NCBI GenBank assembly: GCA_903813345.2
Contig: CAIIXF020000002.1
Coordinates: 28,155,223 to 28,219,222 of the forward strand
DNA: 64,000 bases
Direction of reading: 5' to 3'
From: Owenia fusiformis
Taxonomy: Eukaryota; Annelida; Polychaeta; Sabellida; Oweniidae
A model generated the notes under the pieces. That model saw only the letters and a program-made list of their open reading frames with translations. It had not been told where the DNA came from and did not search any database. Of the stretch, positions 3,667 to 59,307 are shown in pieces. The translations under genes and the position numbers were made by a program. The stretch's first letter is position 1. The number at the start of each line of letters is the position of its first letter.

Positions 3667-5529
3667 TTAGTCATAGTCTGCACAAAGTGAAATGATGCAC
3701 AGCATTTAAAGATATAGGTATCAGGGAGGGGGAACACAAACCAAACAGTCCTATATTGTTGTCTATATTTTTTCCATCAATTTGTATTAATAATTAAGAA
3801 CATTATCTATATATTGATGGGCCAATGATCTCCCAATGTAATCGGACTCCATGTATTGGTTGAATTGAGTGATATTGACAGGTCACGTTAGTTCATTGGC
3901 CTTGAAAAGGAAAACAACCTTTTTCATGGGCGTTTTAAGGTGAGAGTGAACTTGTCAATAAATTTTCAAAATGGCCGAAACAGGGAGCACATTTTTTAGT
4001 TTATTTTGTCTATCAGAATATCTTTCATTGTGACTTTATCTCAATTTTGTTGGTCTAACTATCATTTATATGACCGAGCTCACTCTGGTGAAGTAAATAG
4101 AGACACTGGACATTTTGAAATTAGAAATTAATTCATCTGAAAGAAAAAGAATAGGAAAAGTCCATAGGCAATTTTTGAAAAATTTCTCAGAAACGTCACT
4201 GATATAAATCCTCAAAACAAACGAGCTTTAGAATTTGTTTGAGCCAATTTTTCCAAATGCGTTGCTTGTTCGGTTTTAATATTTGTTTGAAGAATATTTT
4301 GTGCAATTTTCATTTTGGATAAGCGTTTTTTTTACGTTCTATTGCTCGAAGAAATTGTCTCATTTCTGTCTTCATTTGACAACTTTTTTTTATCATACTT
4401 CAATTTTAATATTCTTTACACTATTTATAATGATAATATTGCACAAACACCTGTGAAACAAGAGAAATGGCTTGTCAGGAAGAGAAAAATTCAGTCTTGC
4501 ACTTTTTCAATTTTCCTATTCACTTTCTGTTCATCTAAGCGCATTTGGCGGTGCTTGTTTGACAAGCATGTTAAAATTGGAGTTGCAATTCATATTTTCA
4601 TGAAAATAGTATATTAATAAAACATTGAAAACAAACCCCAACATCCCAACAAATGATCTTACGTATACGAACAAAGAACACCTAAGATTGAATGATATAT
4701 CTTCTAGAACCAATGAGTATCTAAACCTACAACTTGGGTAGCAGAAAGGCCAGGCTTGAATTGCTATATTGTATTTCGGGTCTGTCGATCTTCGGGTACC
4801 AAATGTAGCAAACGGGGAAAGATAAAATATAAGAAACATTTATTCACGGGGGTAAAGCAGACCCGATGATGCAATGAGCTTGCTCGGCGGTATCATGACT
4901 GTGTAACGGGTCTTAATGTATAAGTGTGCTCGGCGGTAGGTTCAAACAACGCGGATCCTCAAAGCATGTGCTCATGGTATATTCGTGTTTTAACACCCGT
5001 GTTTATTTTATTGCCTTTAGCTAACCGGTGAACTGTATCGTAAGCTAAATCACCCTTATTTCATTTGTCCCTTAAGATCATACCCAAGTCTGATAAAGTT
5101 CCATCGCATTCCAAATAGTCTCGTGCAAGGTAAAATCTAGAGATGTAATGTTCATTCTCCCTTAGGGGTCCACGGAAGTTAGCAGTTCGCAATTTCAAGT
5201 CAATGCATGGAATTCTCACTTTGGGGAAGGTTGGGCTCTACGGAGGAGTGGCGTCATAGCATTTAGATCAATATGTTACTCAGTATAACCTTGATTGAAT
5301 ATCAGGATATAGCAAATCAATTCCTCGATGGTCTGGTCCGATGTTCAAAACAAGTAAGGGTATCTATAGATAATTGGTTTGATACCTACCCAATTATTTT
5401 TTGCGAGGTGACTAAAACAAATAAATACAGCCTCACTTTCAAAAATCACTCAATTAAGTATAAAGCAGACGATCAAGTTCTTGTCTTGCACATTACAAAC
5501 ATTTTGGAAACATATATTTAGAAGGATTA
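3667..5529. other. Presumed upstream region of gene 1
   Basis: AT-rich sequence without a recognisable gene. Open frames up to about 100 codons (near 4315-4839) lie on opposite strands over the same bases and have low-complexity, non-family translations. The 5' end of gene 1 should lie in the last part, but no clear TATA or initiator could be assigned. Confidence 0.35.
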
Positions 5530-11800: not shown

Positions 11801-14800
11801 AGCTTTAATTATAAACTGGAAAATAAATAAATTTAAATTAATCAACTCCTCCAGTAGAGAAAATGAAAAGAACATCGTTGCAACTTACAGTGTTAAATAA
11901 GTTGTATTATGAATAAAGTACGTTATAATTAAACATGTTAAATGTGTGACGTTTTAGCTATTTATTGTTGGAAAACGGCGTCGTATTTCAAAAACGACCT
12001 TACTTGTAACTTGTCAGGAAGAAAAGTTATTAAATGTGGTGTAAATAAAATATGTTAATATAAACGTATTAGTCGTGTTCTTTCATTTCCAACCCTGAGC
12101 TAACGATTTAAAAGAATATTAAAGGCAAAAATTACATTTGTATAACGCCAATTTCGCCATTTTTGCACTTTTTTCAGATCGGTTACATGTAAAGTATAGG
12201 AATTTTTGCCAAAAAACTGTTTTTTCTGGGGGAAGAAAATATTTTCATAGTTGATCGTCAATTTTTTGCACAGTTGACCTTTGTTAGTATCTTCACCATT
12301 TCTAACCCTGAGCTAATGGATCAATTTAACATTTTTTTAATTATTTGATATTCAATTTTGTCCTATATGGACATCCCATTAGAATTCTGCAATGATGCAT
12401 GCGTGACGTCACATTATGTTAATTAGCAAATGACGTCAAAATCTCGATATGTGTCGGCCGAGGATAGCTGTTCTTTTTTCGAGGTCTCCTCTGCCGAAGG
12501 CAGCGCAAAGTAGGAGCGTAGCGACTACTTTGCGGGAGACCTCGTTTCGAGGTCTCCTCTGCCGAAGGCAGCGCAAAGTAGGAGCGTAGCGACTACTTTG
12601 CGGGAGACCTCGAACCATTGATCACGTTTGCTCCTGTAATTATTCACTTCTTCACCTCTTTAAAATGTGATTTCAATCAGTAGATCAAATTTTCGGACTT
12701 TGACCTCAAATTCAAATATTAATATTATAAGAAAAAATACTGACTCATTATTATATTTTTAAAAGTCTTTCAAATAAAGTGAAATGAAGCCAAAATCAGC
12801 TAAAATTGTGCAATGTCGTAAAATGGCGTTACTGGAATATGATGCAATCACCTGTGACGTCATACACGTATTGCCACATCAACAACTAAACAAACAATTA
12901 ATATAGACTTCACTGATTGGTTTAAAGATTCTTCGCATCATTTGTGACGTCATAAACATGTTACCAAACCAACAACTAAACAAATAACAAATAGGCATAT
13001 AGGTTCGTTCAGTGCCACGCTCTTGAATCAGTTATAAACAGGATAATCAACAGATATATGATAGGGTCAGTAATTTTTTTGACTTGGAGACCTCGATTCG
13101 AGGAGTTTTCTGCATTTTCTTGTTTACTCCCTCCGTAACTACTGTAACTATTTATTAACTATGGCTGACTTCAAGTTTGCAGTCGGTGAACTAGTCTTAT
13201 TTAACGGGGAGTAAAATAGAACAGCCCAAACAAATTCTAAAATTTTTCCGGCCGACTTCAGAATCTTGACAGCATGCGTATTCTTCCTTCATGCCCGTTC
13301 CACAGACACGGCTTTTACTAATTTTTATGTTTGAATCGGAATAAATAATGATAGGCCATTCAATATGGTGAAATTCAGCACTCGTTGGACAGAATGTTAG
13401 TACAAATGCACTCACCTTCGGTTCGTGCTTTGTACAACATTCTGTCCAACTAGTGCTGAATTTTACCATATTGAATGGCCTATCATTATTTATTCCTTAA
13501 TTAGAGAATTAGATCCATCGAGCAAAAAAACAAAATAAATTGTTTCAATTTTAGAATTTTTGGCTCGTATTATTCCTTGTCATGTCTATTGTCTAAAAAT
13601 CCCCAAAGTGCAAATTTTATTCCAGGAAAACTAAGGATTTTACAATTATGTATTATTTCTATTTTCATTTTACTTTTTTGTTATTTGGGAGAATTTAAAA
13701 CACCTTTCTCTTTTTTTGTACTTTAAATCCTTATTACTTATTTATTTACTTATTCATAACGTATTGCGGATGTTTTGAGCGACATTGTGTTTGAAATTAT
13801 AATGAATGGATTGTTTGGCCAATTGTACATGTTGGTTGCAATTTTGTAACCCCCTATAGGTCTGATTGATTTTTTATACAAGTCTACTTAAAGTCATCAA
13901 ATACCGGTATTCATTTTATATTTGCTTGAAATAGAAATTGACAACGTTATTTGTTTTAGTTACGACATCCAAATTGTTTTGACGTTGACTTTAACCGGCC
14001 ATGGGCAGATTATCGTGATGGTTTTGGGGACATGAGCATTGTACCTGGCAATAATACGGCTGACTGCACGTACTGGATAGGTATTACTACTATATTATAC
14101 ACTTAGATCGGATTTGAAATATAATTGTAATAAAAATTTTGGTACATAGAAATCCATTTTAAAACAATGTTCAAAAAATAATTTCTCAAATCACATACAG
14201 ACAGTCGGATACTCGCATGTATTCTGGTGCGTAGTCATGTAGTCCTATTTCTAAAAAAATTCCAGTTGGCTTGTGACAAAAGGACACATGTTTGTAAAAA
14301 GCACATGGAATGTGTCTATGACGAAAGGACATCATACAGCCACCTTAATCACTTCAACATCTTATTTTAATCGCTTGAATTTTAAAACTATTTAACAACA
14401 CACAAAAAGCTCACGGTACGACTACAATTAACCATTACACCTTCAATTTCGTATTCCGTTCATTCTATACGCCCAAGTGTTCTTCTTTTTAAGGTTTGGA
14501 AAAGATGTACTATTTAACTAACCAAGCTTCAATTACCCAAAATAATGTGAAAACGAGGCTTCAAATGGTGTTCCAGAATCAAGCGCAGCTAGATGGGGGA
14601 TCACCAGGGTGGCCTAGATATATTTCTTTCTTCGATAATTTCAAAGTTGAAAGCGAGGTATTACTTTTGATTTTCATTACTTTTAATTAGCATGTGACGT
14701 GATATTAAAGAGTTACCTTGAACGGGTTTTCTGGAAGAAAACTTATGCTTGAAGAGTAGTAATAGTTCGAGTCTTTCATACCCCTGGTCCTAAAGGACCT

Positions 14801-18691: not shown

Positions 18692-20405
18692 TTAGAGATG
18701 TATCATCTGCAAATAAGTTAATATCTGTTTCCATTGATGCTACTATATCATTAATATAAAAAAGAAATAATTAAGGGCCTAATATAGACCCTTGAGGAAC
18801 ACCAGCTTCAAACGCCAATCTGATTCGATTCCATCAATATCTACCCATTGTTTTCTATTTGAAAGGTAACTATATTTCCATTTCAAGAGTTGGCCAGAAA
18901 TCCCATGCATTTGTAATTTGAAAATAAGACCACGGTGCCAAACTTTATCGAATGCCTTGGAGATATCTAGGAAGACAAGAAGAATTTATTTTTGATCATC
19001 TAAACTATTATAGATTTTGTTCACTAAGTTCACTAACTGATTCACAGCTGAGTCAAGTGGTTTGAAACCAGAGCTTTTGAGAGTTGGTATGTTGTTTATT
19101 AAACAAAATCTATAAATAACATTAAAAACGAGACGCTCAAAAACTTTGGAAATGCAAGAAAGAAATTAAATTGGCCTGTAAGTTCCCTTGATTTGTCTAT
19201 CATCTTTTTTGAAAATCGGCGAAACATTTGCTTCTTTCAAGGTTGAAGGAAATAAACCTGTTAAAAGAGAATGGTTGAAAATACCGCATAAGGATGGTGC
19301 AAGTCCTAATGCACATTCTTTTAAAAGTTTATTTGAGACATTATCTGGACCATTTGATTTAGATATATTGAGAGAAGAAAGGACTTTAAATACTTCATGC
19401 TCTTCAAATTGAATTAGATCAAGTCTTGCATTAGTAATATATGTCAAGTTTGGAAGAGGCGAATCATTTTGATTAAGTGGTAAGATAGTTTGGTCGGCGA
19501 AGTAGTTATTCAAAACGTTTGCCTTACATCATCATTTTCAATGAGAGGAGGTATACCTCTTGAAATTTTTGAGCCATACAAATTTTTCAAGATAGTAAAG
19601 TATAATTTAAGTGAGGTTTGATTGTCGGATAATTTTGTTTTGAGTGAATTAGTATGGTCATTTTTTGCTTGGATGATTGCAAGTTTAACTTCGGTTCGTT
19701 TTCTACAAAATTTCTCATGATCATTTAAATTGTTAGATATTTTGAATTTATAATGAAGAGAATTCCTCTGTTTAATGAGACTTTTTATTTGTTTAGTCAT
19801 CCAAGGTTTGTCTCTGTTTGAAACTGTAATGATATTTCTGTGTACATACAAATTCACACAGGACCAAAATAGCAGGTACCAATCTCGAAGAATGTCATCT
19901 ATGTTAATGTTGTTAAAATAAATTACCTCCCATGGTAAGGAGAGAAGATGGTCGACTAAAAGCACAAAGTTTGTGTTTTTGTAGTCAAATATTGTTCGTT
20001 TATATGTAAGTTTTGCTTCACGCTTAAAATTGAGTGTGCCAAAAATGAAGCAGTGGTCAAGATTTGCATGTGGTTCACATACCCCTGAATTCAAAATAAA
20101 AGCTGGGGAATCTGTTATTATAAGATCAAGAATAGAGTTACCTCGAGTCGGTGTTTGGATCATTTGATAAAGATTGAAATGAGAAAGTAAGTTTGTTGCT
20201 TAATTCGCTTTGATTATGTTGGGAGTCCCATGAAGTGCAAGAGTCATTAACATCATCTAGTAAGACAAGAGAATCTGGTTTCAGATTCACTACTTCATTC
20301 AGATTTTCAGATAAAAGATCAATAAAATGGCCAGCCTCAGTTTGGTTCATTCCTGGAGAACGATAGCAAGTAAACTTGATTTGTGGGTATTCCAGTGGGT
20401 TGATG
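18692..20405 (-). pseudogene. Degraded non-LTR retrotransposon (CR1/Jockey-like), truncated at both ends
   Basis: Read on the minus strand from 20405, the pieces are: the later part of an endonuclease domain (FTCYRSPG, then LDDVNDSCTSWDS, then NSILDLIITDSP); a linker; and reverse transcriptase blocks (SKSNGPDNVSNKLLKECA, ANVSPIFKKDD, TYRPI, LVFLDISKAFDKVWHRGL, SNRKQWV, and finally LFADDTS). Frameshifts and stops break it into at least four frames (20350-20138, 20163-19510, 19513-19166, then about 19165-18692). The 5' end of the endonuclease and everything after the catalytic ADD motif are missing. Confidence 0.85.
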
Positions 20406-23400
20406 GATCTTTGGCTCTGAATTCACTTAATTGGCGTACCTAATTTCAACATTTTCATTGTCATCGTTACATGTTATGGACCCGTTTTTCAAATAAAAGT
20501 ATTAGGGATAAAACCATAGTTTTTTCATCTGTAATGGCATTTTCCAGTTGATTGGTTTATATATAGTATTTTCAATTCTTCATGAGGCGGGTGTCTTGTA
20601 ATGGTGTGGCTAATCACTTTACTGAGTGAGGAATGTTTATTCAAACAATAGATACAAAGAAATCTGGCCAGTTGTCCATCAGTAAATAAATCATCATGAT
20701 TAAAGTATAATTAAATATAGCATCCATTTGTTACCGTTCTGAATCCAAATGATACATAGTGGCATCCATTTTATACATATATGTTGACGTTTACGAAATG
20801 TTTTTCAAATATCTTCCCTATAACAGGAATATGGAAGCTGAAACTTTCACCCATTGTCATACTATGTATATTGAATATGTATGCAAGATTTCAAGTCACT
20901 ATGTTAAGTAGAAACTCTGAGATCACTCACTTCGATTTGCTGTCATATTTTTGCAATGATCCCATTCCCTATAATGTACGCGAGTACCCACGATACATTG
21001 CATATAAATGACTGCATCCACATAGATCGACTAGCCACAGTGTACCAAGTAGAGTTTTCAGGGGCATATGGCCACTGTTTCAATAGTACAAGGTGTAAAC
21101 ATAAACAAATCTTTCAAATGCATTCCACTTTTAAATTTTATATTGTAGCAGGAAGATATGCACCGAAGCGGGAGATATGGTGGGAGATATGGAGATTCTG
21201 GATATGGAAACCTCAAAATCAGGATACGGGATATATTTTACCAACTTATCTCCCTAAAACTCTACTTGGCATAGGATAAATAATGTTATTAACTGAGAGG
21301 GATTAGATATTGAGTTTATTGCACTTGACAAAATGATATCTCTAGAGGGTTTGAAGGAAATATCATATTTCTCTAGAAGTGAAAACTTAACTGAATCACG
21401 ACTAGGGAATAAGCTATTTATCCTATGATATTTTCTTGAGATGTTATATCATACTGTTTTTTCTTGAAGTGAATATGATCATGACGGATGATAAACATTT
21501 TGATATATACTGTAAACGTTTGATTTTCATAGATCCAAATTATTCTACTCAATAATCTGTTTTTGACAAGAACGGAATAAATTGAACAATAGTACAATAG
21601 TACAACAACGTCATTTCGAAGGGCAATATAGTGAAATATTGGACCGAGGGCCGACGTTATTAGTATTATTAACACCGTTAATGACCAGGACTGAAACAGC
21701 AAGAAAATCTCACGCACTGAACGATATTTAATTTCCCGGGGAAAATTGCCGGTCATTAACTGCATTATTGACCGGCAATATGGACCGCCACTATGACGTC
21801 ACATATTGCTCAGGTCGAAACAGGAAAATGAATGCCTTCTAAACTAGCACTAAAACCCCTAGAACTGGCCCGGTAAGGTGGTAATAATGTACGTCATGTA
21901 CACTTCTTGAATGCGTCGAATAACATTTTGTCCAAATCCAATGAAGCAAACTAAGGCCATTGAGTGTGTATGTTTGCCCAATTCAATTAACACAATGACA
22001 AGTAGTACACTTTTTGCCTGACCCTTACTATGTAACTTTGTATTGTATTTCTGTTTACTGCATTTAAAAGTCAAGTACTCGTAGAATACTGTAATTTCAC
22101 TTAAAAGCTTATTTCACTTATCAAAGGTATACAAAAAATGATAGTTTGAAACACATTTAGCACAACAAAATCCATGTACACAAATATTGGAAATCCAAGA
22201 TGGCTGCCACAATTTTAGTTCCATGCACATTTGAAGATGTAAGAAATAACATTATCAATTTATTGTAACCACATCCAAAATGAATGGCGGTCTGACATAA
22301 ACTGTGTGTACTTATACATGTTATATCTAAGTCTGCTTTTCGTAATTTTACTACTACCTACAAAACCAAAATTAGAGAGGATTTTTTGAAATTCAGCAAA
22401 CGATAGAGATAACTGGCGAAAATCATGTTGAAATAGATTATCTGAAGTCAATATACATATTGGGGACTCCATTACCGAAAGAATACAGTGAGTCACTAGA
22501 GGTAAACTGACTCAGTGTTGATTAAATCAATGATCTTTATACCTCGATTCCTCCGTCGAGAAAAATGGCGATCCAAACGGCAACGAACAGATGAACTGTA
22601 CGGCGGTATTTTTGACGCTGTACGTTGCCGATGGTTAGGCGGTTACAATGGAGGTTACATGTTGAATCACAAGGTTTCAATTGCTCCAACTTATTACACC
22701 TTGAAATCTAAGATGGGGGGTTAATCACCATCAATATATATACATGTTTTTAGAGAACTTTGACGTGAACCTTTGGAATTATGGTTCTTTTGGGATTAGT
22801 TCCCCCTTTTATTTACTTGACCGATTGACTGCAACTACGAATGACGTTAAATGATGCTTTGCTTGTCGATTATATTAAACGTGAACTCGCGAGGGGAAAT
22901 TAGGTTCAACAAAAATCTGTCATGAGTGTTGTTTGCATTTGTCCCTGGAGCTTTTTCAGGATAATGAAAGGGTACCGCTAGTACATGCCCCGGGGTACAT
23001 GCGTACCAGCAGACCATAAGCCAGCCGGGGATGGCAATTTAAAAAACCCAGTGTGTTCAAATATGACAATTTTGACTCAAAATCAACTGCATGATTATGA
23101 ACGGATATACCATGCAGGGGGAAGGAAGAGGTTCGAACCCCCGACCTGGCTTCGGGCCTGTATACCTAGCGGTCAGTGCCAGTATATAAAACACGCCCCG
23201 TGGCTCCTCAATCGAATTTCCAATACGAATACATTTTAGAGTATTCATAACCTAAATGAATGAATCTCAACTTGGATATCTTGAATCTTTAAGTACAACG
23301 AAGTGTTTTGAAGTTCACTTGTACAATATTCTATTTCTAAATCATTCATCCCTTCTTTATTTCGCACTTCAATATAATTATTCCGCAATGATGGGTTGTT

Positions 23401-35900: not shown

Positions 35901-38900
35901 TATTGTGTATCACAATATCATTAATCAAACACGATACTGCAAAACGTCATTAAGTACTTCTCGGTCAAATCTGCTCTGACCAAACTTGGGCAAAAAAGTG
36001 TTGAGTACGTTAGAGAGTTTAACTAATCGAGTGGAATTTATCGATAAATATCAATAATATTTCCTTATGGAAAGTACTGCTTGTTGCAATTATTGTTTTA
36101 GGACAACAGACTCAAGGCTGGTGTAAAAGGGTAGAGGGTCCTATTAATTTATGGTCATACTCTCCATTGGTTTATATGTTGACCTTTTTCCCTTATTATC
36201 TTATGCACAATCATGTCCAGTAAGGGCCTTTAAAAAGGGCCTAGGGGACCATAATCCCCGGGGACCATAATTTCTTTCACACTTGTGTCAATGTACAACA
36301 AACCATTGAAAGATGTAATACTGATATCTGTAAAATATGTTGTAGAGAATTCGATTTGGATTTTCCTCTAGGCTACATTTATCCATTTACACACAGGCCC
36401 GTGGCCAGCTTCCAAGGAGGAGGTTTACTTTTCAATTTGATAGAATTCATTTTTGTCATAATCCAAATTATGTTGATAAAGAAACAGAATAAGTATTCAA
36501 ACATTTGTAGGCTCCACGCTGTCAATTGAATACCTTGGTTTCTAAACTTAAGAAGGGGACTGTATCGAGCTAAGCTGACTGTTAAGTCGACGTTATTCGA
36601 GATACTATTCATGTCCTATTGTATACCAACTATCACAAATAATAATTTTCATATCCTTTGGATCCATCTTTTTTGTTTACGTAATGTCTGTAACGTATTG
36701 CTTCAGCTGTTAAGCATCTTCATTGCGATGCAGCAACAATGAATATAACCATTCCTAGTCAGCTTTGTGTCTCCGTGTCGATGTTATTCTTGTGCAATAT
36801 GTCTAGGTATATTCTAGCTTCCCAGTCAAAGACAAACATATGTACGAGGGGTGATCAATAAGTAATGGACGCTTTTCTACACAGATGCTTTTTATAGACC
36901 AATCCCTTCGATTTTCTTACCAGTGATACATCATTCAATTATCTATCAACTCTAGAGATTTGAAAACAAAACATGTAATATCTTTTGATATATCTTTATT
37001 TCAGTGAAGGATGTATAGGTACCCCGGGACCAACGTTTACGTCAAACATTCTGAAGCTATTTTAGCTTGTTTAACATGCAATGCAGGCTGAACAAAACAA
37101 ACCATTATGGTCATGAATTACCCCATTTTTTATGCCATAGTTGATTTTGAATATTTTATCATCACTATGTGGTATTCATGCCACAATTATTCTCGTATTG
37201 TATTATGTGTTTAGATTTGTGGATTTGTGGCGAAGTCTTATACACATGAACAATTGTGAATGTATTAAATAAATGTTGGCAAACTCACGGGGTATCGTTG
37301 GTTCTTTATCTACAATAGATTTTGATTCACGAGAGTTACTTCCACCCTTCCATCCAAAAGTTTGATTTCGCTTGTCTACACTCTTTAAGTTAGAGATAAA
37401 ACCCTCGTGACCGAGTAATTATAAATCGAGAGATTATTAAAACCACTTTCTCACTTACTAACTTATGCACGAAGTGGGACCCAAAAATCGTTTGCAAGTT
37501 ATTACATTAACTTATTGTTAGCTTATACGACAAATGCTATTGTGCGACGAACAGTCGTTACACAACATAACGTAACGAAGTCGTAACACTACCGTACCCT
37601 GTACAAAGTATTTTTTACACGGCTAGAAATGAAAGCACCACGTACACCCCATCAATTAAACATTTCGATTATCTCACGATGGATAGGTCATTTGCCGGGA
37701 TTAAATCTCAATAATGTTCCTTGATAATGAGGGGTCATTCTTATTTATATTAGCAGAGAGAATACTCATCACGACATATTCTCCTAATACACACCCATGT
37801 GGCTAGTTTATCTTTCTGAGAAAGCAAAGAAAATATATGTATATCCGATACAATAGAAGAACAAATACCAACCTTTGCGTTTGAAAAATGTTGAATAAGT
37901 TATTTGAAAGTAGCGATCCCTAGAGTCTAATTATACCTCATGTTCATATCATATGTTCACGCCGTTCCTTTATTTTGTATTTGCAGGGACATGCAGTGCT
38001 GATGTATTTGTCTGTCCCTTGGGGAAGTTCTCGTGTGGCAACCAATCTGTCTGTTTAGACCAGAATCGATGGTGCGACGGAAAGAGCGACTGCGACGCTG
38101 GTTATGATGAAATTCACGAAAACTGCCGTATGTACATGTATTTGCACAGGGGGAGTGTGTATTACCCGTTTACAGGGTAAGTCAAAAAAGGTAGCCAAAA
38201 TCGTAATAACTTAGCTTGTATTCGCGAATGCAACTAATGGCTATCTGCTACCGGATTAACCTACTATTGTATGGGCAACTCAATTAAATATGAATAGTAT
38301 ACGCCATTATTGCATTCATATTTTAATGAGTTAATGAGTCATAAAATAAGAGGTTAATCCGGTAACCGCTAGCCGTTAGTTGCATTCGCGAATACAAACT
38401 TAGTCATTTTGACTCATTTAGCATGGGCTTTTTGTCCAATTTGGCAGAATTAAACCTTGTCCGATGTCTTTTCATTCTAATACGTTTCATTGTTCTATTT
38501 TCAATGTTCACAATTTTATGACTATTTTACAAAACATGCTCTGAATGCCAAAATATACCTAAATCACCCTATCACCCCCATGATTTTATTTTTGAGGTTA
38601 TTAATTAAAGAAAGTGTGGAGAACTACCAGAGACCTTAAACAAGATATTAGAAGGAAAATGAGAGCCAATACACAAGATATATGTGTGTAATCAGAAAAC
38701 GGGCAAGTGCATTGCATACCTGGGTATATCGAAAAGGAACAATGAGCCCATGCATTGCAAATTACATGCTCACACGTTCTCAACAAAACCAGTTCATCCA
38801 AGCGCACTTAAACTACGCGGTGGCTACCTTGTGGGCTACTCGCGTGTGTCAACCGCGCCGACTTTTTGCTAGTGCACCACAGGAGTTCGATTGCAATAAA

Positions 38901-41900
38901 ACGTGATGTCCTTCAAAATAAGTATGTGAGTGTTAGTGCGCTTGGATGAGCTTTTTTTGTTGAAAATACATGAGCATGTAATGAGCACTGCGGGGCGTAT
39001 TGTTCTTTTTGTGATGCCTGGGCAGAAACCTTCCGCAATTCACTAGCAACGCGGGCATACAAAAATACATTGTTAGTTGAATACAAGAACATTGAACAAG
39101 GTTCAGTTGTGCCAATTATTGGGTTAAACTCATGCTGGATGACTGAGTTATAAAGATTTTGTTTGGATTACCTTTTTGACTCACCCCTTATACTAGTAGT
39201 TATACCAAAAGATGACATATTATATTTGCAAAAGGGATGGGATGAAATTTACAAAACGTGGGCCCCTGTTACACTATTCTACTATTTAGATTCGTCCGGC
39301 CCCTGTATATGAAATACATACAAGTATGAAGTAGAATAAAACGGTTTCTAGACAACTCATCCCAAGACAGGTCATCCCTAAGACAACTCATCCCAAAGAC
39401 AACTCATCCCAAGACATATCATCCCAAGACAACTCATCCCAAGACATTTCATCCCAAGACAACTCATCCGAAGACATCCCATCCCAAGACAACTCATCCC
39501 AAGACATTTCATCCCAAGGCAACTCATCCCAAGACATTTCACCCCAAGACAACTTATCCCAATTGTACAATTGATAAATTATTTTGCCCTCTATATTATA
39601 TATATCCTTTTTTCATTTTTATGATTACAAAGTGATTTTTGATTACACACTCAATTTTAATACTGATTTTTAGCATTTTGAAATGGCACTTGAAAGTTAT
39701 GTTCTACTTGTAAGTACTGCCGCTATTTTGATTAATTCTGGGATATTCTAAATATATTTGAAAATATAGAATTGAACATATAAGTCATAGACATTATTTC
39801 CAAATTTAATCATCATAAATCTGAAAGTTTGAAATTGGTAATCTTATTTAGGATTAAGCCCAAATATTTTAAAACCCCGGGTTTAAAACAAAGACTGAAC
39901 TAATCTGAGAGAATTATTCTGATAGCACCTTGGATAATCAAAGTATATATTAATTTGAACATGTTTATCTTAATCCTAATCAGTCAACAAAAATTAACTT
40001 AAACTAGGTAAAACTAGAAAAAACAAAATACATAAATATTAAGTAAATACAGCATGACAAAATATGATATGTGTCAGTGTAAAATACAGCATGAGAAATG
40101 TATATAATAAAAAAACAAAGATATTCCATGACCAGTGTACATGTGCTAACTGCTAAAATCTCTAAATATGTTTCATTCTTTCAAAAGTGAAAATTAATTA
40201 TATAATATTATGTTATATTTCAAGTCGGGAAGAGTTGTCCTGGGGATGAGTTGTCTTGGGATGAGATGTCTTGGGATGAGATGTCTTGGGATGAAATTGT
40301 CTTGGGATGATCGAGCCCATAAAATGGTGACAACAAACCACTACCAGCTTTTTAACGCTGATTCCCTAGTAGTAGTAAAATTAAAAATAATTGTATAATA
40401 CATACAAAATGTACAATGCACTAAGAGTCGATTATATTATATATTATTTTAGAATTCACTGGAGGTACATATGACACAATTGTGAAGATTTTCGGGAATG
40501 ATACCATAAGAACAATAAATCAGTCTTGCCGTAAGTACTTTTAATATTTTAATAAACTAAAAAATATCCCGAAGTATATTTAATTATTTTATTGTAAAAT
40601 CGTAAATATGCACAAATTCCAAGTCAAAAATCAGACACATGTAGATATGAGCGATTGCCAACTTATTCATTGAAATTCTATTAAAAATATCTGAGGTCTT
40701 ACTGTCATGTAAAATATAATTTTTCCCCATTTTTACACTTGAAACTTAAACAACTTTACCGATTCATATTATATCTTTCTCAAATATTGTATTTTGAGAT
40801 TGTAAGGAATACATTGGTAGGTACACGCTGCTTGCAATTTTATCGCTCTGTGTAGATCTGATTATCACTTTATTGAACCAAAGAGAATATCATCCATTAT
40901 TTTCATGTTGTGTAATACTAATCAAAAGTGCATTATGATGAGTAAGTATGATCGACCCCCCCTGGCCAGAAAATCTTTCAAAATCATGCAGTTTTCACCA
41001 TTCTGAACATTTTTAAGTGATTTTGGCCATTTTGGACCAAAATTGTCACAAGTGAACCCCCCTGGAATTTTTCAAAAAGTGAACCCCCCTTGGCATATCC
41101 TGGCTACGGGCCTGATAGAAAACAACATTAAAACCCACCGGTAGAGGTGAATGCAAATGGTAAAATTTGGTAGTTTCCCTTGGGCCAGTTTGATGGACTA
41201 TGGCTCCAAAATTGTAGGGGTTGTGTTGACATGTAGAATATTTTCAAGTATGAACTATTGACTTGATGTACCACAATTAATGCCGTTCTTTTGTTACAGA
41301 TTTCTCGAATTACCCATCATTGTGCGAATGTAAAGAGGCTGTAATAAGCTGCAAAGAAAAGGGATTCACAAGATTACCGGTTGATCTTCCGAGTAATTTG
41401 ACAAGGCTGTGAGTTAAAAGACGAAAATAATGATAAGCGAGACTATGATTAGTTGATGTAACTAGATTGACATGATTACACCATGCTAAATTGCAACATG
41501 TCATGCCATAACAACATTCTGATGTAACAGATTATGAGTGAATCTTTGTAATGAGAAACATATTTAAAACATGTAACATTTCAGAGCATATTGTTTATTC
41601 CATAAATATCCTGAAAGGTAAATATTACACAACAATAAATATATTACAAGTCATCAACATGCCAAATGTCACCAGCTGCCATTTGTTACATATGCTCAAC
41701 TCCAACCACCACCAGTCGAATGACTTTAACAATTTATGTCACCACTAGTGGTGGTGAAATAAAAAAATCATGGCATGTCTATATATGTAGCTACTTCATT
41801 CTACTGAAACGGATAACGAAACGGATAACTGAAACGGATAAAAATATATATAATACATGTATGTGCGTACAATTGCAGTGTTTTTTCAGTAAACTATAAC

Positions 41901-44900
41901 CATGGTCCTAATAATTTAGATCAACATATGTTATAATCATGATATATTTGTTTTCAAATTTAAAACGTTTATCACTTTTCCAGGATCTTCAAAGGTAACT
42001 TGCTTAAAGAGATACGTTCACATGCATTCCAACGGTTTTCCCGAATGACAGTTTTGTAAGTATGTCATACGTGAATTTGTTTTGAATATAGGAATAATCA
42101 CTCCATTCATCATTTTTTTTGTTGATTTTATAGACATCAATACAAAGCAGACATATGCATAATACAAGATGATACAATCCCGGGGATACAATAGAATTCA
42201 GGGATAAACATTTATTTGATGATTGAGAAACCCATTTAACAAAATGAAGCTCCATTTATGAAAGTTGTATTCTACCTGAATATAATCAAAATCTAAGCAC
42301 TAAGACTTCTGGCTGTAGTTGATTTTATGTTTTATATATTTTGCAGGCATCTTGGAGGAAATAAGATAGAGCGCATTGATAATGGTGGTTTTTATGGTTT
42401 AGACAGATTAGAGAAATTGTAAGAACATACAAATATTTCAGAAAATTATAAATTAAATGAACTCATCTTCGAATCCTATCATGTCATCGTTTATCATATC
42501 ATATCATATCATATCATATCATATATAGTAACCAAGAGTTTTTGATAGAAAAATCCATTCATTACATTTGTACTTATTTACAGTGTTACGTTTGTTTCCT
42601 GTGTTACAGATTCTTACAAGGGAATAATCTAACAACCATAGAAACTGGAACCATAGGAAGGCTTCACAAACTAGAATGGTTGTAAGAAATGTATTTGTAA
42701 TCCTGACGTCTTGTCAATAATCTAGAAACAAATTTGTTAAACGCAAGTGTCATTTCAACACAAATGATTTAAGTAACGGAGAACTCATAGTTGAAGATAA
42801 AGACCAAAAGGTCAGTATCATTCTGATACTCATAGCATCTTTCTGTTTCACCTGAAACATCAGGGCTGAGAAGAACTGAAAATGTCATGGTTTATCATGA
42901 TGGTCATGATTGGCATTTTACAATTTTCACTTGTAGATGGCTGAGTGAGAATAAACTGCAGAGTATTGCAATGGATGAGTTTAAATATACAAATCTGATA
43001 ACAATGTAAGAGTTTAAAGTATTTCTTTCCTAAGTATTTGTGAATTTCACTAGCTATTGGCACGTATGGTTGTTTAATATAAACTTGGCAACATTAACAA
43101 AATAAAGAATAAAAACAAATGCACAGAGACCATTAAGGATATTTTTACATTCACATTAAAACAGAACAAATAACTAATGCTTCGTTTATACTATGAAGCA
43201 AAGTTATTATTCAACTCTACTTTGCTACCTTTTTAAAATCAGTATATATTCTGAATAATTTACTTTGTATTATAGCAATCTAAAATGGAACAAACTCACT
43301 CAAGTAGAGACAATGGTTGGTCCAGCGAATGGAAATCTAGCTGTCTTGTAAGTATATCACTTAACGAATCCATCAAGTTTCAGGTGAGATCTACGGGGAA
43401 TTCATGATCAAACCCAAAGTGGGGGGGGGGGGGTGGATAGACCAGAGATTCAGATATCAGTAGAATACTGTTTTTAATACTGAATCTATTGATTAAAAAT
43501 ATTATCTTGTTTTGAAGCTTTCATTGAGATGGTATACAGTTGTTAATTGTCCCAACAAAATGGGAATAATTCCTTATGAGTTAGGAACGAATCCATACAT
43601 GTACATTCACCAGAACGCTGAAAAATGTTCATAACTCGACATGGAATGATCCCACAATGCTGAGTCGCTGACCTTGGTTAATTCATTGATTCATAAGTTT
43701 ATTCCCAAATCAATAATGATCGATATTGATCAATCCATATTTTTGGGGAATTTCAGGTTCCTAGACAACAACAAAATCCAGCGTCTTTACAGCACACAAT
43801 TTAGAAGCATGCAGAATCTCCAAACATTGTGAGTATTTTTTGTAATAGAAGTAATTGTAATTTTAATCGGTATATGCAGATGTTTATGTAGACAATGCAT
43901 AAGCTGTGAAGGACCTAAGTTTACAACATTGTATTGGGAATGCAGCCTGGTATTAGAAGGTATCTATCAAATGACTCTTCTCAGTATGTGTAACTTTTGC
44001 GTGTTAGCAATCCAGAAGTGACGTTATTACTTATACGTCTTTGGCAATGATCATTGTGATACTTAAATACTAAATAAATAAATAGATAAATGAAAAAGCC
44101 TCCATGTTACTCTTAAATTCGCTTTAAGGATATTGATAAGATTGCCCTTGGCAAGCTCGTTTCCAAGCCCTAGTGCCAATTAAAACAATTCCTTCTAGAT
44201 CGATTGTCCTAGAAGATCTCAAATATGTTTTCCCTACCTATTTTGATACTGGGATTTTAAATTTTGATTTGATTACAGAACATTGTCATATAATGACATA
44301 AGCTATATCGCCGAAGATGCCTTCAAGAACCTTCCTTCCCTGACAGATTTGTAAGTAATAATAAACGTCAATGAAAAAGATGAATTGAGTATTTGCTTTG
44401 CCCAATATCAAAGGAAATTTTGCAGACAGTTCTTGTTTCAATTCTAATAATAGCATAGCTAATAGCTATGTAGGTATACATTCATGTATATACCATGAAA
44501 TGTATTTATTTTTGAATTACCCTCTAATGTATGTAGTCTTATGTAATTCATAATAATTCATGTAACTAAAAAATTTTAATGTAACTAAGTGACTTAAGAC
44601 AAACATAAAAATCTGTACAATTGCATTTGATATTTACAATGAATTTCCATAAAGATATTTTTATATTTTTACAGATAATATGGTTAGATTATAGTTGAAA
44701 TATGTGCTTGTTTTGTTTTGTAGAGATTTGGCCTGGAATAAACTGACACGACTTCATCGTAAGGTTTTTGAGCCACTTACAGAGTTGCAGCTGCTGTAAG
44801 TTCTGTTTTATTGTTGTATTTCATTCACCAGAGTTTATATGTTTTCAAATTATTTGATATGTTCGCTTATAACTATGTATTAGAATTATTGTATATATGA

Positions 44901-47900
44901 TATTCGGACCATTCTAGATAATGACATTAATTTATGGTGTAATGGACACCCCCACCCCTCAAAAACAGAAAAAAAGAAATATTGAAAAATTTGTTGAAAA
45001 AACACTGACAAATTATAATTTGAAATGCTTAGAATGCACCATATACAATGTAAATAAAAGAAACTCCCGTATCCTTTTTGGGGCTCACTTCTCTCTCACT
45101 GTGCAAACCCCAAAACGCACCATTTTGACAATTGCTTGGTACGCCCCTGCGCTATATAATGATACTAGGTTTTGTCTTATAATGTTTTGCAGAGACTTAT
45201 CAGGCAATCCAATCATTCTACAAGTGAATGGATTCTCAGGTCTTCAGAAGTTAGAAGTACTGTACGTAAAGTATTTGTATCAGTAAATACTTCTTTCATT
45301 GTTTTCTTGACTCGAAGTTCTTCGAATTATGAATTAAGTAATAAATAAGTAAATATTAATATGATATTGTTTGCAAAAACTGAATTCAAAGACTTTAAAT
45401 TGACACAACATGTATTTGCATTATATCGATCAATTTATTTTTTGAACTACCCTTCAGTGCATGTAGTCTTATGCAATGCTTAATATGTATTGTACATTAC
45501 AGGAAGTTAGGAGCAATCTCAATTGATAACATTCAAATAAAGATGTTTTCATCTTTACAGAGCTTAAAATTCATGTAAGTGTACTTTCTTGTATATTCTA
45601 AACAGTGGTTTACAAATCGTTACAGTATACGCATAACATAACTAATGACGCCGTCTTAAATCATGAAAAAACTAGATCAGAATATTCATGAACGTGAAAA
45701 AACTAAGTTTTACAGCCAGATATTCTCAATCTTGGGACGGTGGGAAAAGGTGAACCCTCATTGCTAATGGGACAGCTTGCCTACCTTTACCTTTACGCTT
45801 CAGAGAGTTCAAAGACTTTCACTACTGTAGTTACGCTCCTCATGTTCGGAGTTGTGATCCCAAGGGAGACGGGATATCCTCATTCAACAATCTCTTGGAC
45901 AATCCTGTCCTTAGGATCAGCATTTGGATTGTGGCTTGCTTTACATGTGCTGGCAATCTGGCTGTGCTCATCTCCAGAACGCTCATAAAGACAGATCTGA
46001 ATCTTCATTCTATAGTAATCAGGAATTTATGTGGTAAGATTGCAGATTACCATTCAACGATGCAATGTTTAAAACCTCTTGAATACCAGAACATTTGACA
46101 TTTTTTCTTTACTTTTTAATATAACTGAACATTAACCAATTTTGATACATATTTTGTGCATGTGTAAATACATAGAACAAACCTTTTAAAGTTAGAAATT
46201 CTGTAACTGATATTTACATCACTTTAAGAATTCAATTTTTAAATGTAATTGGGAGTTAACCATTGATTTTCCAAAAATGTGATGTGACTGTTTAAAGAAT
46301 TGCTTATTCGTACTTTTTTCAATAAATCAACTAATGGTTTTGAAACACGAAGCCTAATTATTTAAGAGAAAGTCAAGTCCTTGACTCAATCAAGGGTCAT
46401 GCAAAACACCATTGAAATTAATTAAAAGTGTCTGTACGATGTTTTAAGAGACATGCGTGTAATAATGTCTTCTAAATGTATGTATCAAGAAACATACAGA
46501 CCAAACAAGCTTTGTATATATTTTGCTTGTTATATTAATGTAACTCTGGTATGTATTACGATGTGACTTTTTAATATATTTGTAGAATAAATGAATAATT
46601 GTGTCAATTGTTTTTCAGCTGCCGACTTACTAATGGGCATATACTTAGTAATAGTAGCTGCTCAAGACGTCAGGTTCCGCGAGACCTACAACTCGCACGC
46701 ATATGAATGGATGTCTAGCCATCTTTGCCAAGTTACAGGAGTACTTGCAATGATATCTTGTGAAGTTTCTATACTCATTCTCGTGTTTATGTCCGTAGAA
46801 CGTTACGCTACAATATCATTTCCATACAGGACTTTCCGTATGTCTTCAAAGCTAGCATGGATCATTCTATGCTCGCTATGGGTGACTGGGCTTCTCATTG
46901 GAATCATTCCTCTGACTTCAGAAAATGCATTTGGGAAGTTTTATGGCAGTAATGGAGTTTGTTTCCCGCTTCATATACACGATCCATATCTCAAAGGATG
47001 GGAGTATTCCGCTTTTATATTCATTGTATTGAACTTTACCAGCGTTGCGGTGATAGTGTTCTGTTACGTCGCTATGCTGTGTAGTATTTATAAAACTCAG
47101 CGTCTTACTGAATCAACGTGTGCACAGGAGAGGTCGTTCGCGAAAAGAATTCTCGTTATCATCCTCTCAGACCTTATGTGCTGGGTCCCTCTCATCACAA
47201 TAAAGCTCATGGCATTTGGTAGCATTAGGATATCAGGTAAATTATGTATGGTTCCTTTTATTATGATAAAGAATGGTTCTTTATTAAAGATTATGATATG
47301 CATTTGTGATCATCATTGTGATGTGTGAGGTTATGGTATTTCATAACATATGAATATCATGTCAATTTACAATCGTCTTTTCGCGTAAATCATTGCTCCT
47401 TTTTCTTCCAAAAAGGCTTTCCGGAATCTTGATAAACCATGATGGTGTACATAAGTAGACATACGTATGTGTTTCAAATACTAAAGCGTTGAAGAAGCAA
47501 GCTTCAAAAAATCTGCAATAGATTGAATATACACCATGAATAAAATTGATTTCAGATAGCATGTATGCCTGGTTGGCCATCTTCATATTACCAATAAACA
47601 GTGCCATCAACCCTATTCTCTACACATTGACCATAGTCTCGTTCAGACGAAAGTTCCTCCAATTTTGGAGAAGAAAATATAGGAGTGGAAAGACCAAACA
47701 CTGCTCAAGGTTCCAAATGGGTCGTCTAGGTGAGTTAGACTTGCATTTGATACCTAACACCTTGTGGAATGACATGAATAGCTAATTACGGTAACATTAA
47801 TTTTCCTCGAACAATCATTAAAATGGCAGCAACAGCTAACAGTAACATCTACATGTATGTTCCTTAATATATCACTAAAATGGCATCAACAGCTCGCTCA

Positions 47901-53913: not shown

Positions 53914-56569
53914 GGATTTCACGAATTGTGCAATTTTTAATCAAATAATTTATTATATTGCACTTCATGAATATTGTATATATCAACATAATACTAGAAG
54001 GTCTAAAATATTTGTTTAAAAATATTAATTAACTCATTGACACAAATATTGAATCAGGGAGTTTAAAAAGCAGTTTCATTATACAGTTCCATGTAAGTCT
54101 AGGATAATGTAATTTCAATCTTCTACAGTATATAAGATTCAGAAAAATGGGATAGGTGTATACACTGTATAGGTCTTCAATAAATTAGTTACTCTAGAGA
54201 AAAAACATTGATATTTTGATCCTGCCGATCTTGGCCTGGCCCTGCTGCTCCACCATATGTTTCATTTATTGTTTTGTAAACTTAGAATAATGCTCATTAA
54301 TATAAATGACACTTCCTGTTTCTTTGTAAGATGTTTTGTAAATAAAAATGCTAGCATATTTTATCAAGATGCTGTTTTGTGTGTGTAAAATTTGAAACAG
54401 AGAGTGATAGAATCAATAGTGACAGACTTGAAATACATGACTTTGGGCCAATATATTTTACCAAAGTGATTTTGTTTATTGGGGTTATGAATGGCAAAGG
54501 ACTGTGAGGGGGGGGGGAGCTTGTACTAACCCACCTTTGCTAGAGTTGGACTTTAAGCTTATATGAATCTATTGATGGGGGCTTATGTCATAACTGGTCA
54601 TGGGTACTTTTGATCACTTAAGCAGCGATTTGAAATTTTCAGGGAATTAATTCAACTGTTTTATATCACCTAGCGATGCGATTAATAATCCAGTGAAGAC
54701 CCGGAATACATATGGGGAATATATAATAGTCAATATTATTGCCCACTCATTTGGACCATTCAGAATCAAGTTTTTCAGTGTCATTAATTATAAAGGTGGC
54801 AATAATGATTTTGAAAATTATGAAGTATTAAATAGAAACTACTAAAAAGATCATATATTCTTTTTCCTATTTTGTTTATTGAATCTTGACTTTTGCATAT
54901 TTAAACAAACAACATTTATTTTGTATTTCAAATAATGCCAACCAATTTACCGGCAAATTGTGTCAACAGACAAATAACATTTACTGGTTGAAAAACTTTT
55001 AAGTCTTATTAGCTAATTCAAATTAACCGATTGTCTTATCAAATAAAAATGCATTCCAAAATAGTTACAGGGGTTTCACTAGAATTTCTCACAACAGGCT
55101 AAGTAAATGAAAACAACAGGCAAAATTAATGGAAATCATAAAAACATGGAAAATTAAAAAATCCCTAAAAACAACAGGCGATTTTGTGAAAACAACTGGT
55201 GAAAATCGCCTGTTGTCTGCTGCTAATGAAACCCCTGCATAAACTACAAAATAGATCACCTTGGCTCTGTAAGCATTTTTCATTTTTGCCATTTTGTTTC
55301 TCAGTTTTTAAGGTAGACCCATAACAAACAAATTATGAGGCTTTAACATGCAAAATGTCATCACCTGCCACTTAATACAGATGCCGAATATTAACAACAA
55401 CCACAGAAAAGTAGGAGACTATAACAATATGGTGACATAAAATTGAGTGAATTGGATAAAAATTGTCAAAATTAAAGCCATTTTGGTGAAGTTTCTATGA
55501 TTGTGAATATTCTCAAGTTGCTCTGTGTATTCAAGAGAAGTATTTACAAATATTTTCCACATATTACTTAAAAGGCCCATAGGCTACAATAGATTGCTGA
55601 TTGTCACTCATATTCTTGGTTTTAATAGTGATTTTTAAAGGCACCTACTTGGGCCTACCATTTTGAATATAAATTCCAAATAGCCTTCAAAACATAGTAA
55701 CCCTATATAACTTTGCCAGTAAAGGAGAAATCATAAGGTCAACAATGATTTCAATACAATAAACTCATAACACATCAATTATTAATTCCATTCTAAATAA
55801 ATGTTGTCTAATGGTATCTCGCATTTTCTCCTATACCTGTAATGTTAAAATGACCTGTTTGAGGGTATTTTTTAATTAAAGTAGGCCATTATGACAATTC
55901 TAACTATCAGAGATCCAAATTCTGCAATAAATGGATCCAAACATTAAGAGGTAGTGTACATAAGTATAGCACCATAAGATAATTTGTGCTTATTCTTTAT
56001 TTAATGGAAGAGGAACATACAATATCAGCGCTTGCATTAGGTTAGAAAATTTGTGAGTCCCAAGGACGCAATTTTTTTTAAAAAAGTGTGTCCTTTGAAA
56101 AAAAGTGTGTCCCCTATTTCTAGCCTGTTTTGGGGTATAACTTTATTTTAAAAGCATTTTTACCAAAACACCTTTCAGTTTCTGATTTCTTGCCGCGAAT
56201 TTAAAACGGAAGTAAACGTTAAGTACGGACTGAATAAATGCATGTTCGTTCATTCGACAATGAATACATTTTATTTGATGAATAACCTAATATTTGTTTC
56301 TGAATAGGAAAAACTGTGGCGTGTCATGGTTTCAAATCTAAAAATAAACAAAGTCGAAAAAATTCGAGAGAATCATGATTATTTGTAAATATTCAACATG
56401 TTGAGCCTTATTTATGATTCAAATAAAGGTGAGAGATCATAATTATTTGTTTTTGTTAGGTATTGTTGTAAACACATTGTAATATTGACCTAAAAAAATT
56501 TTGCGTCCAAAAAACGGATGTTTAAATGGTACATGACTAAATGCATATTGTGAATTTAATGACTGTCCT
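53914..56569. other. Intergenic region between genes 2 and 3
   Basis: AT-rich. The segment 55075-55230 carries a small local repeat of aaaacaacaggc-type words with an inverted copy (cgcctgttgtctgct). One dispersed-repeat copy lies at 55343-55440. The 3' end of gene 3 transcript lies at the right edge. No gene seen. Confidence 0.4.
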
Positions 56570-57661
56570 TTATGTTGCAATAAACAATGACTTTAATAAA
56601 TACTTTTGGAGCAAAAATAAAATAAAAACAGAAATTACAGTGAATGTTAACATAAACTTGATAAAATCCACAGCAGTATAGTTTCTATCTACAGTACTCT
56701 CAAGTTGATGGCTATATGCTATATCTGTAAAAACTCTAATTTGAGCTCTTGGTATAAAAATTGATACAATCATAGTATGTATTGGTGCATCTCCCCATCG
56801 TGCTAAATAAATGCCTCCTGATTGGTCGATATATTCTATAATGTCTCTGACTTGGGAGCTCCGCCAAAATTCCAGTGACGCGATTTCGAAATTGTTATAG
56901 ATCTGATCTACAGGATCACTCCAGGACCATTCATTGAAGAAAGTTGGCGTCAAATTATGAGTTTTGATATAATGCGTAAAATTGTTTTTGAGTCCTAGCA
57001 CACAATCATCTCTTTCCTGAGAGATTAATGCATAGCCATATTTGTAGTTCTGATTCTCCATATGTTTAAATATATCATAATCAATGTGCTGAAGAATATT
57101 AGAGTCGTCATCTAGTCTCCAGTACCATTCAGCTGTGTGCATAATTTCTGTCTCAAACACCAACTTGGTGTGAAATCGGCACATGTGGCGGTATCCAATA
57201 TGACTAGGGTACGGACAAACTTTCATATAATCCTCAGCAGGTTTCCGTAGAAAATCAGGTGTACTAAAGCTGACCTCATGAAATATTATTTCAGCAGATG
57301 TAGAAAATCGTATTGCTTCTTTATCACTTTGCGTCAAATCAGGCTCATGAAATAAAACAACAGGATATTTAAATCTCTTTATAAAGAACTTATCCAGCTG
57401 TTTTAATGTCTTGATAAATGTAGAGTAAATCCGAGGCTTAAATAGGAGAAAGTATATCACAGCTTTTGGTTTATCGTGTGGCCAATTGTTAAACAGGTAT
57501 CTGAATCGTTCAATCTCAGACATTCCTTCTATACCAGGGACGGAAACATGTCTGTTATGCTGCCATAACATTGAGCTGTAATAAGGCACTGTTATAAAAG
57601 TATATGACGCAATAATGAGAATTATAACCACAGCAGCAATAATTTGATTTTTACGCTCCAT
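56570..57661 (-). CDS. KRE2/MNT1-like: KRE2/MNT1-family alpha-1,2-mannosyltransferase (GT15)
   Basis: A single intact exon of 363 codons. Family GT15 enzymes move mannose from GDP-mannose to protein- or lipid-linked mannose in the Golgi; in fungi they extend O- and N-glycans. Visible: N-terminal membrane segment (residues 7-27); conserved blocks YRHMCRF (157-163), WYWRLDDDSNI (179-189), NFEIASLEFWRS (257-268) and ARWGDAPIHT (287-296). Family members usually have an EPD-type metal site in the WYWR block; here it is DDD. A second hydrophobic segment at 333-355 near the C-terminus is unusual, since fungal members are type II proteins with only the N-terminal anchor. A 5' untranslated exon edge (acceptor ttattacag|g) is visible at 57841. 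The family call is firm; substrate and true enzyme activity are inferred. Confidence 0.9.
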   Translation of the reverse strand: MERKNQIIAAVVIILIIASYTFITVPYYSSMLWQHNRHVSVPGIEGMSEIERFRYLFNNWPHDKPKAVIYFLLFKPRIYSTFIKTLKQLDKFFIKRFKYPVVLFHEPDLTQSDKEAIRFSTSAEIIFHEVSFSTPDFLRKPAEDYMKVCPYPSHIGYRHMCRFHTKLVFETEIMHTAEWYWRLDDDSNILQHIDYDIFKHMENQNYKYGYALISQERDDCVLGLKNNFTHYIKTHNLTPTFFNEWSWSDPVDQIYNNFEIASLEFWRSSQVRDIIEYIDQSGGIYLARWGDAPIHTMIVSIFIPRAQIRVFTDIAYSHQLESTVDRNYTAVDFIKFMLTFTVISVFILFLLQKYLLKSLFIAT

Positions 57662-57841
57662 GTTGTCGCCGAATGCTGAATGAGCTCAATGAGTTCTGGT
57701 CCAATGACCTCGCAAGTCACCACCACTAGGTCACTACCTTGATGTGCTAGGTGGATCTAACTTTGATGGGACTTCACAATCTGACATGTTGGTTGTAGGC
57801 TGTTCTACTAGCCTACAGTGCAGATTCTTCAACACTCCAAC
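57662..57841 (-). promoter_or_regulatory. Likely 5' untranslated exon part of gene 3
   Basis: On the minus strand, ctaatttattacag precedes a non-coding run that leads to the ATG at 57661. This implies an upstream non-coding exon that was not located. No TATA box was assigned. Confidence 0.4.
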
Positions 57842-58121
57842 CTGTAATAAATTAGAAGTTATCTGAAATAAATATGATTCATGAGCAAAAGTCTAGTTTT
57901 TATAGATTCTGAATCTTTTCAAAAAGGAATAAGAGTGGATCTGCCTGTAAGATTGGCCTGTACTCTCTTGTTACATGTACTTCTCATTACTGAAGAGCCT
58001 GTGATTCTAACACAGTCAAGTTTACCTCTTTCAAAGTCTGTTGACCAGGTCTGATACACAAGGACATTCCTTTGCTCGTCCCATATCAGCTGCTGGAGAA
58101 ATGTGATGACTGAAACTGAAA

Positions 58122-58445
58122 TCAGCTGAGCACTTACTTTATATCTCCAAATGTTTCCTGCTTCTGTGCCAATCAGGGCTTCTCTTTATCCTCAAGTGGA
58201 TATTCTATTTTACTGAGAAATCAAAATGGCGGTTTTAAAAGAAATTCACGAAGTATAGCCTTTGGAGATTATTGAATGAACTTAAAAAAAATTCTGGTAA
58301 GAGCTCTCAGTAAATTTCCATCAAACTGCCATTTTGATTTCTCGCTAGAAAATGTCCACTCGGGGATAAAGACAAGTCCTGATCGACACAGCAGCAAATG
58401 GAGGGCAGTAATGTGGAAAACATGTAAGTAGCTGATTTCAGTTCA
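58122..58445. mobile_element. Foldback element upstream of gene 3
   Basis: ctgaaatcagctgagcactt … gagaaatcaaaatggcggtt at the left pairs with aactgccattttgatttctc … agtagctgatttcag at the right; arms about 115 bases, loop about 75. Non-coding. Confidence 0.8.
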
Positions 58446-59307
58446 AGCCGTCATGATTCTTAGGCAGAAGATAAGAGCAGCAAAGGATGTTCTATCAGAT
58501 CAGTCAGCCTTTGAAAGAGGTTACAGTGAGCAATATCCATTCTAAATACTGCTAAGTAGTTATAGAGGTTGTCTTCCATGTTGGCCAATAGGCTTACTAA
58601 AATGCCAGTCTGCAATGCAATATTTATTTCAGTTGATGCATTCAAGTTCCTGTGAAAAAAATTCTGCCACAATTGTGTGAAGGCTAAACAAATACAGTAA
58701 TTATCAGATTCATCATGGGCTTTATTATATGAATGATAGGATGGGGCATTATATCTAAAATATTAATAAGCTGATAATTACCTGCATTCCCACTCGTGGG
58801 CAAATCAAAGTTTTTAACTAGTTTTTGTTCATGGCCGCAGCCATTTTTATTTTGAAACACTTCAATGAGAACTTTTTTGATTGGCTTATTCTCTACTATT
58901 AATTGGTTTTGGACCAATCAAAAGGGATTTTTGAAAATGGGTTTGGAAACTTAACAAGAAAAAGACCCGGATATAAAAACAGGTATGAAATTTGCTAAAT
59001 TCTAATTTGTGGTCTAATTTGTTAGTTTATTTAACACATTCGGACTGGGTGATGGGAATGTTGACACAGTTTTATTCAACCAAGTCAACTTATGCTATTT
59101 GGGCTTAATATACTGACAGTGGCACTACTTTTAGATCGTCTTTAGGGAAGAGACTTGGACGGGTCATCATCACAGAAATCACAGATTTCGTCCAGTGTTT
59201 ATATCGAAATCATCGGGGCTATGGATAGGTAATAAGACAAGAAACCAAGTAACGAAAGAAACTAAAGTACATATTTGATTACCTGATCTCTGCCATTTAT
59301 TCATCCA
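58446..59307. other. Unassigned stretch
   Basis: No gene seen; two minus-strand frames of 70-77 codons lack family resemblance. Confidence 0.3.

Follow-up and report, generated by a model that had tools for sequence, protein, structure and literature searches.

The gene occupies positions 56570-57661 on the minus strand of the 64-kb window, which is the whole stretch of Owenia fusiformis DNA that was analyzed. It is an ATG-to-TAA open reading frame of 363 codons without an internal stop, and it encodes a 363-residue protein in a single coding exon, as the earlier note had reported for these exact coordinates. When 30 random 64-kb sequences were generated with matching base composition, their longest ATG-to-stop frames averaged 114 codons and reached 187 at most, so the length of the open reading frame is not the product of chance. 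The GC content is 0.348 in the frame compared to 0.351 in the window, the start context read by eye is gacaacATGG, and the blocks YRHMCRF, WYWRLDDDSNI, NFEIASLEFWRS and ARWGDAPIHT are all found in the translation. A tblastn search detected one GT15 copy within the window. A motif scan located a possible polyadenylation signal, ATTAAA, directly 3′ of the stop codon (56555-56560, minus strand) and further candidate AATAAA signals near 56275 and 56147. There are 10 acceptor-like sites upstream of the gene, six of which fall inside 58084-58473, and the suggested 5′ exon boundary at 57841 failed the 68% pyrimidine filter of the acceptor-site scan. Within the 769 bases 3′ of the stop codon, A runs reach a length of 8 at most, which leaves the retroposition option of the earlier note unsupported; an old retrocopy could have lost its A tract.

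Ten other frames in the window were scanned with Pfam, and four of them gave matches to PAN_1, Fibrinogen_C, Ldl_recept_a and 7tm_1. In a second set of ten frames, most of which lie near the GT15 gene, no viral or fungal family scored above its cut-off. The matched domains identify the window as animal DNA. An apparent LDL-A/leucine-rich/7TM receptor gene lies at 37914-47785 on the plus strand; Ldl_recept_a and 7tm_1 were matched by Pfam, the leucine-rich part was recognized by eye, and we take the order of the three parts to recall the snail receptor GRL101. A tandem simple repeat at 39330-39635 translates into SSQDN/SSQDI-like units (by eye). Nested imperfect inverted repeats that begin about 420 bases upstream of the GT15 ATG pair 58084-58127 with 58430-58473 (73%) and 58159-58204 with 58351-58396 (83%), and in sequence the 58084-58473 element resembles a small inverted-repeat transposon. 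A 298-base inverted repeat (9186-9483 and 13203-13500) is 99% complementary, with arms 3.7 kb apart that each contain an inner inverted repeat, and the pair appears to be a mobile element or a duplication of recent origin. Another inverted repeat, at 9599-9828, is 71 bases long and near-perfect (99% complementary), with 88 bases between its arms. Apparent remains of a non-LTR retrotransposon were recognized by eye at 18779-20422 on the minus strand, and the RVT_1 match there (E 6e-6) is just below the curated cut-off.

The Owenia protein matches Pfam Glyco_transf_15 (PF01793) with 157.3 bits (E 8.1e-46) against a cut-off of 25. The match places the GT15 catalytic domain at residues 58-319 (56705-57490, minus strand) and covers profile positions 41-324 of 325. 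Yeast Kre2 matches the protein with E 5.5e-36, and the relatives of solved structure with E values up to 0.001 comprise three sequences, all of them fungal GT15. An AlphaFold model built from 35 sequences has a mean pLDDT of 87.1 and a pTM of 0.78, with weak loops at residues 24-26, 32-36 and 323-328. When the predicted model was searched against PDB folds, the best eleven matches were fungal GT15 chains (E 7.4e-24 to 3.3e-20), and the twelfth was a xylosyltransferase (E 7.6e-8). The best match in BFVD was the Megaviridae protein A0A5J6VLB3 (E 1.8e-16), and the next had E 2e-8. The Pfam score, the Kre2 match and the eleven PDB chains bear out the GT15 membership proposed in the earlier note, and they identify the product as a GT15-family protein with a predicted GT-A fold. 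The protein shares the family and the predicted fold with Saccharomyces cerevisiae Kre2p/Mnt1p (PDB 1s4n, 1s4o), and likewise with yeast Ktr4p (PDB 5a07) and Aspergillus fumigatus Ktr4/CmsA (PDB 7boo).

Two hydrophobic segments flank the catalytic domain. The N-terminal segment at residues 7-25 (57587-57643, minus strand) has a hydropathy of 2.77, lies within model helix 2-36 and is a predicted membrane anchor. The C-terminal segment at residues 333-351 (56609-56665, minus strand) has a hydropathy of 2.47, lies within model helix 330-362 and is predicted to be a second membrane helix. The N-terminal segment is common to the Owenia protein and Kre2p, the family of which is described as having a type II layout in PMC4546622. 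The second segment is absent from Kre2p, and with two segments predicted by hydropathy and the model, the Owenia protein would depart from the one-segment type II layout of the Kre2/Mnt1 (KTR) type. The N-terminal helix would anchor the protein in the membrane, and the C-terminal helix probably does so as well. With two membrane helices, the GT-A catalytic domain would sit in the Golgi lumen and both ends in the cytosol. Three N-glycosylation sequons are found at positions 227, 236 and 327, and those at 227 and 236 would fall in the lumenal domain of this predicted topology.

The active site was compared by alignment. The metal site of the Owenia protein is D-D-D at residues 184-186 (57104-57112), followed by serine, and E259 (56885-56887) is the equivalent of Kre2 position 329, which we take to have a role in catalysis. 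Y157 (57191-57193) corresponds to the phosphate contact Tyr235 of Ktr4p, and H318 (56708-56710) to its Mn ligand His411; both contacts are given in PMC4546622, and all four codon positions are on the minus strand. The Kre2p positions Tyr220, Glu329, Asp361 and His388 are kept in the Owenia protein. Among the 33 non-fungal rows, Owenia included, Y157, D184, D186, D291 and H318 are identical in all 33, and E259 is kept in 28. The metal motif was counted in 103 rows composed of the Owenia protein, 3 fungi, 3 archaea and 96 viral sequences. The pattern R-[ILVMF]-D-x-D-S is found in the Owenia protein and in 98 of the 99 archaeal and viral-contig rows, but in none of the three fungi, where the site reads E-P-D in Kre2 and E-P-N and E-P-K in the two Ktr4 proteins. 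D-x-D-S is present in 95 of the 96 viral rows, and the sole locus row without the full pattern, L126, is likely in the wrong frame.

The nucleotide pocket differs from the fungal type at the base. The guanine contacts of Ktr4p include Asn172, Asp173 and Trp204 (by stacking), and Tyr229 is a further contact residue (PMC4546622); residue numbers were assigned from chain lengths, and the letters match those named in that source. Ktr4p Asn172, Asp173, Trp204 and Ser234 align with Owenia H105, E106, F132 and G156, letters that occur in 25, 25, 29 and 33 of the 33 non-fungal rows (Owenia included), and Tyr229 has no aligned partner. The Asn-Asp pair is the guanine contact of Kre2p too, in place of the Owenia His-Glu. 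The active site therefore looks complete, with Y157, D184, D186, D291 and H318 kept, and its nucleotide pocket differs at the base. The label fungal-type given in the earlier note does not hold for these positions, which have D-D-D-S rather than E-P-x and guanine-contact residues of the archaeal and viral-contig type. These alignments make the Owenia protein a D-x-D form of GT15, unlike the fungal Kre2/Ktr4 structures, which have E-P-x. The fungal comparison consists of three sequences, two of them Ktr4 proteins and two from a single yeast species; other fungi may therefore have the D-x-D form.

Relatives of the protein were found in archaea and on viral contigs. The first alignment query combined the Owenia protein with three fungal stretches and gave 39 viral-contig loci from 104 pattern matches and 3 archaeal loci from 87. 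Wider alignments yielded 146 relatives among 158 matches and 99 among 139 on viral contigs, of which 80 were kept each time. A single-sequence scan of the viral contigs gave no match where the alignment-based scans succeeded, and tblastn at E 1e-3 gave no match in the phage and plasmid collections. The three archaeal relatives are L040 and L041 from Ca. Methanoperedens and L042 from archaeon Arabian11_MAG_21, which is incomplete. Their identities to the Owenia protein (41, 38 and 43%) are the highest found, compared to 30% for Kre2p, 25 and 26% for the Ktr4 proteins, and 25-36% for the viral rows. Three-sequence profiles scored the Owenia protein at 222 bits (archaeal), 141 bits (fungal, from shorter stretches) and 145-158 bits (three viral sets). 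The archaeal proteins have an R-L/F-D-T-D-S metal site and share the G-G-I-Y, I-A-Y/V-P-Y and R-W-G-D blocks with the Owenia protein. The viral-contig proteins (e.g. L001, L047 and L002, with the Megaviridae protein in BFVD) share D-x-D-S and the family, and Pfam GT15 was matched in all three viral rows scanned. The membrane segments set the Owenia protein apart from both groups, since no such segment is present in any of the 99 archaeal and viral locus rows, where the highest hydropathy is 1.45.

GT15 is rare among the archaea searched, where the seed genomes alone matched (1 of 392, 1 of 87 and 2 of 31) and controls gave 0 of 14. By eye, the archaeal genes are surrounded by ordinary prokaryotic genes, and they therefore have no appearance of eukaryotic contamination. 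The surroundings of L040 and L041, found in 2 of the 31 genomes of the genus, differ from the Owenia locus in having prokaryotic glycosyltransferase and methyltransferase genes; FkbM-like and GT2 genes adjoin, with a GT2 gene near L040. In Ca. Methanoperedens, GT15 thus appears from its sequence context to be a patchily held surface-glycan gene. Viral contig L047 has two GT15 genes (1041-2003 and 3986-4930) clustered with other sugar genes and FkbM methyltransferase genes. GT15 is common in viral glycosylation clusters and undescribed there as far as the literature was searched; for GT15 in giant viruses, this search gave nothing that looked relevant.

Trees were built from Owenia, fungal, archaeal and viral rows after thinning rows of at least 60% identity. 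In the 41-row tree, the Owenia protein groups with viral L095 and L002 (support 84/84). The 38-row tree leaves out L126, L116 and L118, which have very long branches, and places the protein among five viral rows (94/97). With three fungal rows, the AU p in this set is 0.0415 for an Owenia plus fungi clade and 0.159 for Owenia plus archaea. The third tree additionally drops the long viral rows L095, L002, L052, L058 and L061 and pairs the protein with archaeal L042 (90/82). The omission of these five rows removes the rejection of the Owenia plus fungi clade (AU p 0.221, three fungal rows). The Owenia branch is long in all trees (1.35 to 1.61), and its position shifts with the rows used. A fungal origin is without support from these trees, yet compatible with them.

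The published distribution of GT15 is patchy. Tables in PMC6260743 count five GT15 genes each in the cryptomonads Goniomonas avonlea and Guillardia theta, no GT15 at all was found in the green and red algae whose genomes are covered by PMC3797821, and the family is expanded in Mucoromycota and Zoopagomycota (PMC8778642). A table count gives one GT15 gene in the land snail Achatina fulica (PMC10295696), the sole source of an animal GT15 count in the part of the literature searched. This mollusc gene belongs to the same CAZy family and may be an orthologue of the Owenia gene. In the part of the literature searched, neither a D-x-D GT15 nor one with two helices was described. The GO term 'glycolipid 2-alpha-mannosyltransferase activity' also covers ALG11, which belongs to another family. 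The term is listed for hookworm (PMC2882930), and given its breadth this entry was left uncounted as an animal GT15. An octopus mannosyltransferase match was rejected as GT15 because it is DPY19L1 (PMC8976471), and a choanoflagellate glycosyltransferase of fungal origin has no family named in the text consulted (PMC7971027). The occurrence of GT15 in a snail and in cryptomonads, with none found in green and red algae, fits an old presence with losses, and old eukaryotic retention with many losses is the history these published tables lead us to favor.

The relatives found with the same metal site are archaeal and viral, the trees place the Owenia protein with rows from these two groups, and the coding part has no intron. 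These observations give a modest chance to a transfer in which the donor was a microbe with a D-x-D GT15 or a large DNA virus and the two membrane helices were gained later. The archaeal and viral neighbors may only mirror the sequences sampled, however, as the search covered archaea, viral contigs, phages and plasmids, and the rarity of GT15 in archaea, the lack of a membrane segment in all 99 relatives and the listing of GT15 in the snail and cryptomonads argue against such a transfer. Transfer from a fungus, an option of the earlier note, is highly improbable. Most described GT15 enzymes are fungal, the third row set leaves an Owenia plus fungi clade unrejected, and the early fungi with expanded GT15 lie outside the three-sequence sample; against this, the metal- and donor-site residues are unlike those of all three fungal sequences, identity to them is lower than to the archaea, and the 38-row set rejects the clade. 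A recent fungal transfer is unlikely because the active site is nearer to the archaeal and viral relatives than to the yeast enzymes compared. The closest relatives detected are non-fungal, which makes a chimera with fungal DNA unlikely.

With old retention as the favored history, we consider it reasonably probable that the gene encodes a membrane-bound D-x-D GT15 of the Golgi that depends on Mn2+ and likely uses GDP-mannose. In the proposed mechanism, D184 and H318 would hold Mn2+, which would bind the diphosphate of the nucleotide sugar, with Y157 as an additional contact; the transfer would be a retaining one in which E259 has a part. Most likely, GDP-mannose would supply an alpha-mannose, and a glycan on a secreted protein or a lipid would accept it. 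The donor is the uncertain element because the guanine-contact residues differ (His, Glu and Phe, with Tyr229 unpartnered). The replacement of the guanine-reading Asn/Asp by His/Glu and of the stacking Trp by Phe, mostly as in the archaeal and viral rows, would suit a GT15-fold enzyme with a donor other than GDP-mannose. We think such a donor unlikely, since Glu could hydrogen bond to guanine as Asp does, the remaining active-site residues are kept, and Kre2-family enzymes use GDP-mannose (PMC4546622).

Invertebrate glycans include mannose-containing glycolipid cores and O-mannose (PMC6367135), and a link of the Owenia GT15 to either is speculation. A tentative proposal, which may well prove wrong, is that some animals keep a non-fungal, D-x-D, two-helix GT15, and that with it they form a linkage of alpha-mannose, or of another sugar, that is currently assigned to no animal enzyme. 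If this is true, glycolipids or secreted glycoproteins of molluscs could, for instance, bear the linkage. GT15 is best known as a family of the fungal cell wall and as an antifungal target. If animals have an intact GT15 that differs in its metal and nucleotide site, the family would not be specific to fungi, and some animals may make a linkage that is considered fungal. The older GT15 site would in that case perhaps have been an ordinary D-x-D and not the E-P-D of yeast.
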